A model generated the notes under the pieces. That model saw nothing but the letters and a program-made list of their open reading frames with translations, was not told where the DNA came from and did no database searches. From contig NZ_CP012334.1 in the NCBI RefSeq assembly GCF_001704295.1, positions 3,484,084 to 3,548,083 on the forward strand: a stretch of DNA of 64,000 bases. Reading direction: 5' to 3'. This document shows, piece after piece, positions 55,641-62,071 of this stretch. Both the position numbers and the translations under genes were made by a program. The DNA comes from Bordetella sp. H567. GTDB taxonomy: Bacteria; Pseudomonadota; Gammaproteobacteria; Burkholderiales; Burkholderiaceae_B. Numbering within the stretch: the stretch's first letter is position 1; each line of letters starts with the position of its first letter.

Positions 55641-55656
55641 CGGCACAGGGCTTGCG
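55641..55656 (+). promoter_or_regulatory. Sigma-54 promoter of the small acidic protein gene
   Basis: CGGCACA-N4-TTGCG: GG at 55642-55643 and GC at 55654-55655, the correct 10-bp interval. Differs from TGGCAC...TTGCW at the first and last bases. 60 bp before the start codon. Confidence 0.5.
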
Positions 55657-55715
55657 TGCCCGGGCCTACCGCGCCCGCAGTGCAACGCCGGGCGCCACCT
55701 GTTCAGGAGGCTCAC

Positions 55716-55997
55716 ATGGCAACACGCTACAACCCTGACGCCGATCTCATGGGTAATGGGCTGCCCGGCCACGGCAACCGTGCGCTAGGCCCCAGCGATT
55801 CCTCGGACTCGGCCAGCGATCTCGGCCCCGATACGCCGGACACCGACAGCGATGCCAGCGGCACCGGCGAACGAGCGGACGTCGAAGGCGATTCGGACGA
55901 CATCATCGGCGACGACGTCGCGCCCGACCGCATCGTGGATGAAGACCAGGCGGGGCTGGCGCACACGCGCCCGGACCCGACCCGCAACGGTGGCTAA
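55716..55997 (+). CDS. Small acidic, disordered protein
   Basis: 93 aa, no signal peptide or helix. Opens MATRYNPDADLMGNGLPGHG; middle is a low-complexity Asp/Ser/Thr/Gly stretch with repeated D-S, D-T and SDAS pairs; ends LAHTRPDPTRNGG. Strongly negative and probably unstructured. ATG follows a perfect AGGAGG site. I recall similar short acidic proteins in related genera but no function. The sigma-54-type promoter in front suggests it belongs to the island. Confidence 0.75.
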   Translation: MATRYNPDADLMGNGLPGHGNRALGPSDSSDSASDLGPDTPDTDSDASGTGERADVEGDSDDIIGDDVAPDRIVDEDQAGLAHTRPDPTRNGG

Positions 55998-56092
55998 GCC
56001 CGTCTTGCAGGGCCTGCGCGCGGGACCTGCCCGTTGATCGACACGCCTGCTCCAGCCGGCATACGGCCATTTACGGCCGATGTGCGCGGCCC

Positions 56093-57487
56093 CTACTTTG
56101 CCGCGCGGCCGGCCGATTCCGGCTTGGCGCCGCCATCGCCGTTCACCTTGGGGAAATGCCCCGCGGCCGCGTACTCTTCCAGGCGGTTGTAAAGCGTCTT
56201 CAGGCTGATGCCGAGGATTTCGGCGGCGTGCTTCTTGACCCCACCGCATTGCTCCAGCGTCGCGAAGATCAATCGCCGATCCGCGTCGGCCAGGGGCACG
56301 CCCACCGGCACCGTGATCTGCGAACCCGTCGCGGTCTTTTCGGGAGACATCTGCAAGGGCACCACGCCGGCACGGATTTCATTGTCGTCAGCCAGGATGA
56401 AGGCGCGATGGACGTAGTTCTTCAGTTCGCGCACATTACCCGGCCAGGTGTGATTGCGCAGGCTCTCCAGCGTATCGACGGCGAACTTCTTGTCCGCGCC
56501 GCGTTCCTTGTTCAGCATGTCCAGATAGCGCTGCGCGATGAGGATCACGTCGTCCCCGCGCTCACGCAGCGGCGGCAGCTCCACGGGAAACACGTTCAGC
56601 CGGTGATAGAGGTCCTCGCGCAACTTGCCTTCGGCGACGGCCTCTTCCGGATTGCGGTTGGTTGCCGCCACGACGCGTACGTCGCTGGCGATCTCGCGGT
56701 TGGTCCCGACGCGCATGAATAGCCCCGTCTCCAGCACGCGCAGCAACTTCACCTGCAGGTCGATGGGCATTTCGGTGATTTCGTCCAGGAACAGCGTGCC
56801 GCCCGCCGCGCGTTCGAAGTAGCCCTTGTGCTGTCGGTCCGCGCCGGTAAAGCTCCCACGCTCGTGGCCGAACATCTCGCTTTCGATCAGGTTGGGCGAA
56901 ATGGCGCCGCAATTGACCGGCAGGAAGGGGCCCTTGCGCCGCCCGCTCAATTCGTGAATGGCTTGCGCGGCAAGCTCCTTGCCCGTGCCGCTGTCACCCA
57001 TGAGAAAGACGGTGGCTTCCGTCGGCGCAACCTTGGCGATCTGGCGATACAGCTGCTTCATGGGCTGCGAGCGCCCGAGCATCTTGCCGAAGCGGTCCTC
57101 GTCCTCGAATGGCCCGCCCCACGGCGACAGGTCGGCATTGCGCGGCATGCGCCCGAGCACCATCTTCAGGCGCTGGATATTGACGGGCTTGAGCAGATAA
57201 TCGATGGCGCCAAGGCGCAACGCATCCACCGCGCTCTCGACGCTGGCGTGGCCGGTAATGAACACGACGTCGACGTTCGGTGAACTCAATGCCTGGAAGA
57301 TGTCCAGGCCACTTCCATCCGGTAGCTGCAGGTCGGACAAAACCAGGTCCGGCGATTGACGAAGAATCTGGATCTTCGCCTCGCGCAAGTCGCTGGCTTG
57401 GGCAACGGTAAACCCTTCGTCCTTGACGATCTCGGCCAGCGCGGTTCGCACTGGAGATTCGTCATCGACGATCAAAACATGTGGCAT
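56093..57487 (-). CDS. NtrC-family sigma-54 response regulator, no adjacent kinase
   Basis: 464 aa. Receiver 1-120 with DDE (8-10), phosphorylation D52 (LVLSDLQLPDGSG), K100 (YLLKPVN). AAA+ domain: Walker A GDSGTGKE (164-171), sigma-54 contact loop GSFTGA (211-216; the first A of GAFTGA is S), Walker B LFLDEITEM. C-terminal Fis-type HTH with HAAEILGISLKTLYNRL. No histidine kinase is adjacent. It is divergent from the receiver-less activator; its recognition helix is nearly identical to that one's. Confidence 0.94.
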   Translation of the reverse strand: MPHVLIVDDESPVRTALAEIVKDEGFTVAQASDLREAKIQILRQSPDLVLSDLQLPDGSGLDIFQALSSPNVDVVFITGHASVESAVDALRLGAIDYLLKPVNIQRLKMVLGRMPRNADLSPWGGPFEDEDRFGKMLGRSQPMKQLYRQIAKVAPTEATVFLMGDSGTGKELAAQAIHELSGRRKGPFLPVNCGAISPNLIESEMFGHERGSFTGADRQHKGYFERAAGGTLFLDEITEMPIDLQVKLLRVLETGLFMRVGTNREIASDVRVVAATNRNPEEAVAEGKLREDLYHRLNVFPVELPPLRERGDDVILIAQRYLDMLNKERGADKKFAVDTLESLRNHTWPGNVRELKNYVHRAFILADDNEIRAGVVPLQMSPEKTATGSQITVPVGVPLADADRRLIFATLEQCGGVKKHAAEILGISLKTLYNRLEEYAAAGHFPKVNGDGGAKPESAGRAAK

Positions 57488-57758
57488 GCGCAGTTCCGTG
57501 AAGTTCGCGGTTTTTTTCAGGGTCTGAAAAAGCCGGGGCGCACCGCGCCCCGCTGGGCTTTATTCTAGCCTCCACCGTACGCCCCCCGCATCGCGTTTAA
57601 GACGGAGGCCAGTGCATAATGGGGACCATTCGCGGGCAGCGAAGCTTATCGCGCCGTGTTTTGGGCGTACGTAATCAATTCGTACAGTTAGCTAAGATTT
57701 TCATCTACTTTCAAGTGCTTGCAATGGCGAGTATTCTGGATAAGTAGGATCACGAGAT

Positions 57759-61592: not shown

Positions 61593-61601
61593 GTCCATGC
61601 C

Positions 61602-61621
61602 CCATGCTGCGGTCAGCATGG
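61602..61621. promoter_or_regulatory. 20-bp inverted repeat between the divergent sigma-54 promoters
   Basis: CCATGCTG-CGGT-CAGCATGG, perfect 8-bp arms. Symmetrical candidate binding site for one or both Fis-HTH activators of the island. A GC-rich hairpin of other function is the alternative. Confidence 0.5.
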
Positions 61622-61623
61622 TC

Positions 61624-61639
61624 GGGTACGGGGCTTGCT
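61624..61639 (+). promoter_or_regulatory. Sigma-54 promoter, plus-strand exported protein
   Basis: GGGTACG-N4-TTGCT with GG 61625-61626 and GC 61637-61638. Differs from the degenerate consensus only at the first base. Start codon 64 bp downstream. Confidence 0.55.
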
Positions 61640-61702
61640 CGACAGTAGGAGGCCCATCGGGGGCCAGGCCGATCGGCCTGTAGACAACAAAGGAGTAGCG
61701 TC

Positions 61703-62071
61703 ATGAGCATCATCAAACTTTCCCTGAGCGCCATCGCCTTGAGCATTCCGGCAGTCACCTTCACCGCGCATGCGCAAACCCAGGCGCCGATGACCAACAA
61801 GGAAATCGATGCGCAGTATAAGGCCGACCAAAAGAAGTGCGATGGCCTGAAGGGCAATGACAAGGACGTCTGCAAGAAGGAAGCCAAGGCTACGCGCGAC
61901 AACGCCAAGGCCGATGCGAAGCAGGCCAAGAAGCAAGCCGAATCGCGTCACGATGCGACGAAGGAGAAACGTAATTCCGCCTACGATGTCGCAAAGGAAA
62001 AATGCGACGCGATGTCGGGCAACGCCAAGGACGCCTGCATGGCCGATGCGAAGACCCGCTACGGCAAGTAA
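61703..62071 (+). CDS. Small exported Lys-rich protein with paired Cys repeats
   Basis: 122 aa. Signal peptide up to FTAHAQ; mature part Lys/Ala/Asp rich and helical. Two internal repeats of about 20 residues: KKCDGLKGNDKDVCKKEAK (C46, C57) and EKCDAMSGNAKDACMADAK (C101, C112), both C-x10-C, so two disulfides or a metal site are likely in the periplasm. Between them a charged helix (TRDNAKADAKQAKKQAESRH). ATG after AAAGGAG. No established function. Confidence 0.82.
   Translation: MSIIKLSLSAIALSIPAVTFTAHAQTQAPMTNKEIDAQYKADQKKCDGLKGNDKDVCKKEAKATRDNAKADAKQAKKQAESRHDATKEKRNSAYDVAKEKCDAMSGNAKDACMADAKTRYGK

Follow-up and report, generated by a model that had tools for sequence, protein, structure and literature searches.

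In the general stress responses that depend on sigma-B, RpoS or EcfG, control lies with sigma-70-type factors, without sigma-54 and its AAA+ activators. Here we describe an island in the genome of Bordetella sp. H567 (5.53 Mb; designated G000) which probably encodes a second sigma-54 system, acting as a stress regulon beside the housekeeping sigma-54. The island is centered on rpoN2, a second sigma-54 gene, and lies in a stretch of 64 kb (contig NZ_CP012334.1, positions 3,484,084 to 3,548,083), which is referred to as the window and numbered from its first nucleotide.

The candidate counterpart among described systems is the rpoN1/rpoN2 pair of Ralstonia solanacearum, which also involves a second Burkholderiales rpoN. 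There, rpoN2 is preceded by a classical site (TGGCACAGCCTTTGCA) and is no longer expressed once rpoN1 is mutated (PMC4371752). The two factors are not interchangeable, RpoN2 replacing RpoN1 only for C4-dicarboxylates (PMC4676750). The role of the Ralstonia RpoN2 has been called enigmatic and, unlike here, no target promoters are assigned to it in the portion of that work available to us (PMC4371752). The consensus employed to scan the R. solanacearum genome is T-initial with a mismatch allowed; among the 40 sites listed, two begin with C and one with G (PMC4371752). Burkholderia pseudomallei likewise has a second rpoN, its rpoN2 mutant showing less katE, a stress gene; the accessible sections of that report describe no regulon, promoter class or activator (PMC4745423).

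Outside the Burkholderiales, the RpoNc/RpoNp pair of Bradyrhizobium sp. DOA9 (PMC13207237, 2026) includes a stress-linked second, plasmid-encoded RpoN and a T to C change before the -24 GG, which is the same base as the one discussed below. Unlike the present case, the host is an alphaproteobacterium, the 22 predicted sites possibly belong to either factor, and both proteins bound promoters in electrophoretic mobility shift assays (PMC13207237). A second DOA9 change precedes the -12 GC, a base which is fixed in the pattern used here, and no such island is described in the available part of that paper (PMC13207237). In Rhodobacter sphaeroides, the paralogues RpoN1 and RpoN2 are reported to have separate regulons and a one-base promoter difference, but this lies at -11 and concerns flagellar genes rather than -26 and stress (PMC3162934, PMC12316311). 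Two consensus forms in B. japonicum are reported to differ at -12 (PMC3162934). Promoter divergence between sigma-54 paralogues, even at the -26 base, has precedent; no earlier description of the Burkholderiales regulon, the island or the one-way class difference was found in open-licence papers.

Both strands of the window were searched with a strict -24/-12 pattern (NGGYAYRNNNNTTGCN), using the reversed pattern as control. Sites were classed by the base at -26, immediately before the GG: T class sites possess T, non-T sites possess G, C or A, and GC class sites possess C or G. A first-pass annotation had named rpoN, an NtrC-type regulator, a receiver-less AAA+ activator and a PRC-barrel protein in this island, with -24/-12 elements before rpoN, an acidic protein and two divergent exported proteins. 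All four genes were confirmed with Pfam, and the four elements, which account for all four strict matches in the window (reversed pattern, none), stand where they had been placed. The features are as follows, each with its evidence.

55641..55656, plus strand, predicted sigma-54 site of the non-T class (CGGCACAGGGCTTGCG) before the acidic protein gene; strict pattern
55716..55997, plus strand, acidic, disordered-looking small protein with an LGPSDSSDS stretch; translation
56093..57487, minus strand, NtrC-type response regulator with receiver, AAA+ (GSFTGA) and Fis helix-turn-helix; Pfam
57759..58838, plus strand, receiver-less AAA+ sigma-54 activator with GSFTGA and Fis helix-turn-helix; Pfam
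58848..59300, minus strand, PRC-barrel protein; PF05239, syntenic within the genus
59431..59446, minus strand, off-consensus sigma-54-like site (AGGCACGCCGCATGCT) facing the PRC gene; ATGC in place of TTGC
59512..59527, plus strand, predicted sigma-54 site of the classical T class (TGGCATGGACTTTGCT) before rpoN2; strict pattern, weight matrix and conservation
59586..61064, plus strand, rpoN2, second sigma-54 gene, likely TTG start; Pfam and NCBIfam
61204..61536, minus strand, Exp1, small Pro/Thr-rich protein with a signal-peptide-like start; translation, relatives syntenic
61577..61592, minus strand, predicted sigma-54 site of the non-T class (AGGCATAGGGTTTGCT) before Exp1; strict pattern
61624..61639, plus strand, predicted sigma-54 site of the non-T class (GGGTACGGGGCTTGCT) before Exp2; strict pattern
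61703..62071, plus strand, Exp2, small Lys-rich protein with a signal-peptide-like start; translation, relatives syntenic

The comparison with shuffled DNA proposed in the first-pass annotation gave no enrichment: a generic sigma-54 weight matrix, constructed from a consensus, had five matches in the window at a threshold score of 13 (three in the island), as against one to six in six third-order Markov shuffles. The claim for the sites therefore rests upon conservation together with the strict pattern. Allowing no more than one mismatch, the site before rpoN2 was present in 13 of 13 stretches containing this gene (the window and 12 other loci) and, among the 80 named loci, in 78, the misses being L086 (no site) and L114 (two mismatches). 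The orthologue of the acidic protein gene is preceded by non-T sites, with A or G at -26, in five congeneric loci. The off-consensus site facing the PRC gene recurs at the same place in five of six congeneric loci and is a weaker claim. The gene caller placed the rpoN2 start at the TTG at 59586, or at 59529 under another ATG bonus; with the former as the likely start, an open reading frame from 59511 overlaps the rpoN2 promoter.

The rpoN2 product possesses all three sigma-54 domains above cut-off, namely the activator-interacting (PF00309), core-binding (PF04963) and DNA-binding (PF04552) domains, and an RpoN box (ARRTVxKYR). G000 carries another, housekeeping rpoN at 151 kb. In the Alcaligenaceae, RpoN2 (at least 53% identity) was found in 16 of 25 genomes, that of the window included; among the remaining nine, six had an RpoN1-like match alone (at most 44%) and three had no match. 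Of 150 genomes sampled from the order, five had a match of at least 50%. The nearest relatives in named records, at 79–80% identity, are in Achromobacter aloeverae, Bordetella sp. LUAb4 and Achromobacter sp. HZ34, a listing which possibly omits very near records. In a tree of 48 rows, a single 100/100 branch separated 21 RpoN1 from 27 RpoN2 sequences; the tree took 27 of the 81 RpoN2 rows aligned, and several of its RpoN1 rows were long-branched. Synteny in the Alcaligenaceae, which the first-pass annotation proposed to check, holds: rpoN2 lies beside the NtrC-type regulator in 16 of the 25 genomes, the regulator orthologue being within 12 kb of rpoN2 in all 16 genomes with RpoN2. A match of at least 60% identity to the receiver-less activator was found in 14 of these, G019 and G020 being the exceptions.

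The -24 region is occupied by the RpoN domain of the sigma factor (PMC6028918). The RpoN box is present in 81 of 81 aligned RpoN2 sequences, partly by construction since the rows were chosen with a pattern for the same motif. All 21 RpoN1 sequences end the box with E, and 76 of the 81 RpoN2 sequences end it with H (39), G (31) or A (6); this last residue is a candidate determinant of promoter-class choice. In a separate position, the alignment column of RpoN2 residue 409, next to the -12 helix-turn-helix, Arg is found in 81 of 81 RpoN2 sequences, and mostly Phe (11) or Trp (8) in the 21 RpoN1 rows of the family.

The islands were compared in the 80 named rpoN2 loci, of which L050–L087 are from Alcaligenaceae plus one record labelled otherwise, and L088–L129 from Burkholderiaceae. 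Excluding the sites before rpoN2 itself, 310 strict sites were present, compared with 14 for the reversed pattern. Among the rpoN2 promoters with a strict site, 67 of 73 possess T at -26, as against 18 of the 310 other island sites; T at -10 occurs in 58 of 73 and 55 of 310, respectively. The contrast at -26 holds in L050–L087 (26/32 versus 6/144) and in L088–L129 (41/41 versus 12/166). The predicted promoter of rpoN2 is thus of a different class from those of the rest of the island in both families. In these other sites T amounts to 6% at -26 and 17% in the six preceding bases; since it falls below the local T content, T at -26 seems to be avoided rather than merely unneeded.

In the island of the Burkholderiaceae genome G179, non-T sites lie directly before three genes, which code for OtsA (trehalose-6-phosphate synthase, above cut-off), for a protein of the DJ-1/PfpI type and for one with BON. 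Nearby are DUF2383, DUF4142 and BrkB, as well as a protein related to the acidic one of the window (38% over 92 columns, E 9e-5 in a single comparison). In B. pyrrocinia, a 47%-identical rpoN, a candidate orthologue, is surrounded by genes for PRC, DUF3008, DUF1328, DUF3175 and type 1 glutamine amidotransferase proteins and by treY, malQ and treZ; there are six strict sites (one with T), none for the reversed pattern, and a one-mismatch T site before rpoN.

The absence of T from the non-T class is circular by definition, and the evidence free of this is the phyletic contrast, the island comparison and the base-composition test. The pattern GGCAYRNNNNTTGCT had 33 matches in G000, as against seven when reversed. 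Away from the island we inspected 66 such sites, 31 of them in G000 and 35 in a second genome, G005; 17 are of the T class and 49 non-T. The non-T matches among those of G000 number 22, some of them by chance. The T class sites have AT-rich flanks and the non-T sites mostly G or C at -10; the rpoN2 promoter in the window has T at both -26 and -10. Based upon our own gene caller, 46 of the 49 non-T sites are intergenic, and in four genomes a same-strand gene start lies 15–200 nt downstream of 64 of 88 non-T sites.

The GC class pattern (SGGCAYRNNNNTTGCT) was found 296 times, versus 69 reversed, in the 16 Alcaligenaceae genomes with RpoN2, and 25 times, versus 25 reversed, in the nine without (Fisher, 6e-6). 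With one genome per genus, the counts were 211/43 for genomes with RpoN2 and 15/20 for RpoN1-only genomes (1e-6). The T class pattern (TGGCAYRNNNNTTGCT) shows no contrast (160/23 with RpoN2, 64/8 without). Among these 25 genomes the second promoter class, as a group, is in clear excess only in those with RpoN2. G006, a genome without RpoN2, has six GC class sites, and the four examined all fall inside genes.

Many GC class sites stand before genes of stress type (CsbD, DUF3606, superoxide dismutase, DJ-1). In G000 and G005, T class sites stand before glnA, ureD and other nitrogen genes: the ten genes scanned code for glutamine synthetase, UreD, a nirB-like reductase, an amidase, ATP-grasp, Ku and ABM proteins, one protein without a family, and two binding proteins named urtA-like and nrtA-like by eye. 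Behind non-T sites of the same genomes we found genes for DUF3606, CsbD, a GlgX-like protein, DUF6496, CsbD/DUF883, topoisomerase IB, a low-affinity iron permease, hemerythrin, an AI-2E-type permease, a histidine kinase, alcohol dehydrogenase, BrkB and DUF378. In G008 and G019, from other genera (39 of the 42 listed GC class sites), the families included DUF3606, alcohol dehydrogenase, AI-2E, BrkB, Ku, DUF4142, DJ-1 and superoxide dismutase. Related downstream genes recurring among G000, G005, G008 and G019 form 18 clusters, 13 of them with non-T sites throughout, four with T sites and one mixed. Topoisomerase IB was set aside, a site directly before the gene being seen only in G000.

What can be read from sequence comprises the paralogy, the synteny, the two predicted promoter classes and, in one family, the link of one class to RpoN2. 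From these we propose that the housekeeping RpoN1 would transcribe rpoN2 from its T class promoter, and that RpoN2 would then recognise the second class, with the NtrC-type regulator opening these promoters, together with the receiver-less AAA+ protein in genomes that have it. The regulon would be insulated from RpoN1 by the avoidance of T at -26. Judging from the gene families (CsbD, DUF3606, hemerythrin, Ku, superoxide dismutase, DJ-1 and glycogen debranching, with OtsA in a Burkholderiaceae island), the regulon may protect the cell in starvation, osmotic or oxidative stress; sigma-B, RpoS and EcfG regulons have a similar content of small-protein and trehalose genes. In its full form the proposal is of two insulated sigma-54 systems with a one-way switch from RpoN1 to rpoN2, in which RpoN2, with its changed RpoN box, reads -24 elements counter-selected for T and runs a sigma-54 general stress regulon of the Burkholderiales. 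We advance this version tentatively, rating its chances at a little under even.

Several observations weigh against the proposed stress regulon. G013 has RpoN2 and yet only eight GC class sites versus six reversed, and the Burkholderiaceae proper show no genome-wide contrast (GC class 202/119 in the 17 genomes that have RpoN2 and 61/31 in the 24 that lack it). Six of the 73 rpoN2 promoters, all in Achromobacter loci, possess A or G at -26. A pattern with a spacer of 3 rather than 4 (GGCAYRNNNTTGCT) is 2- to 29-fold commoner than its reversal in all 13 genomes compared, whether or not they have RpoN2 (29 versus 1 in G006), likely owing to a codon-frame effect. The reversed control can therefore understate the background, and weight was accordingly put on the comparison of genomes with and without RpoN2, on intergenic position and on recurrence before related genes. 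The sequences are related, so that the p-values overstate independence. Gene families were scanned for 30 genes only behind non-T sites, and these include the non-stress genes for a transketolase, a c-type cytochrome, a molybdopterin oxidoreductase, RecQ and a nucleotidyl transferase. T is not excluded from the presumed targets, the Ku site being of the T class in G000 and of the C class in G019. No enhancer motif was found upstream of 90 non-T sites, either among palindromic 4+4 dyads (best 16, shuffle maxima 12–17) or trinucleotide dyads (best z 5.7, null maxima 4.6–6.2), and the activator assignment therefore rests upon synteny. Finally, an E. coli rpoN mutant regained the use of amino acids with B. 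pseudomallei RpoN2 (PMC4745423), and RpoN2 can therefore use some classical promoters.

This last result would also suit an arrangement in which both sigma-54 factors read both classes, the stress set is set apart by its activators only, and the -26 base drifts as these promoters need less sigma affinity. The phyletic contrast cannot separate sigma factor from activator, since every one of the 16 genomes with RpoN2 also has the NtrC-type regulator. Drift, however, would not bring T at -26 below the local T content, as observed over 310 sites; it is the RpoN domain of the sigma factor, and not an activator, that binds the -24 region (PMC6028918), and Ralstonia RpoN2 cannot stand in for RpoN1 on most substrates (PMC4676750). 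We regard this explanation as unlikely.

Rather less credible is the circuit suggested by the first-pass annotation, a self-contained loop in which this sigma-54 would switch on its own gene and, beyond it, just the island's small proteins. The part of it which stands is a conserved island with activators of its own and predicted sigma-54 promoters in front of small-protein genes. In its favour, rpoN2 is preceded by a perfect site, RpoN2 might also read the T class, and the non-T sites before rpoN2 in the six Achromobacter loci make self-activation there possible. The circuit is not self-contained, however: the same class of promoter site occurs at about twenty places elsewhere in the genome. 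As for sigma-54 raising its own level, a cascade is preferred because the genome holds a second, housekeeping rpoN, because the rpoN2 site is of the nitrogen-gene class and the rest of the island is not, and because Ralstonia rpoN2 needs rpoN1 (PMC4371752). That non-T sites are not promoters but bind another protein with a similar sequence preference is very improbable: they are predicted from sequence, but their asymmetric GG-N10-GC layout, the same-strand gene starts downstream and their association with RpoN2 in the Alcaligenaceae all argue otherwise.

If the full form of the proposal is correct, sigma-54 and not a sigma-70-type factor would be the master of a general stress response. The proposed cascade would give RpoN2, second rpoN genes occurring in many Burkholderiales, a concrete, testable function. 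It also suggests a reason why scans with a T-initial consensus rank RpoN2 targets low. A pair of sigma-54 factors distinguished by a single promoter base would be a natural case from which to learn how -24 elements are read by the RpoN box.

The regulator of the window is NtrC-type and not NtrC proper, as it scores 382 bits against an NCBIfam NtrC cut-off of 558.6. Both activators possess a PF00158 AAA+ domain, in which the GAFTGA-type loop is spelled GSFTGA. No kinase gene was noticed adjoining the regulator. Elsewhere, genes for a GAF histidine kinase (G000 and G005) and a lone receiver protein (G005) lie behind non-T sites (L151, L163, L164); these are possible signal inputs to the NtrC-type regulator.

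The acidic protein, Exp1 and Exp2 have no Pfam or NCBIfam family match, and the labels "exported" and "disordered" were assigned by eye. A protein of 135 residues resembling Exp1, by eye, is encoded elsewhere in G000, with a GC class site 39 nt before its start (L157:2009; G000:C1:5103307-5103322). Two conserved island neighbours complete the window.

62141..63601, minus strand, cardiolipin-synthase-like phospholipase D protein; TIGR04265, 301 versus a cut-off of 290 bits, syntenic
63702..63998, minus strand, hydrophilic small protein cut by the window end; translation, syntenic

Most of the six congeneric loci retain the order NtrC-type regulator, AAA+ activator, PRC, rpoN2, Exp1, Exp2, phospholipase D; that of G001 has no match to Exp1 and Exp2. 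Away from the island, CsbD and glgX-like genes are convergent neighbours, each with a GC class site of its own, in G000 (L134, C1:1414784 and 1417376) and G005 (L183). Also in G005, an entericidin-like lipoprotein of 45 residues, under the NCBIfam cut-offs, is encoded behind a GC class site (L175:1835-1969).

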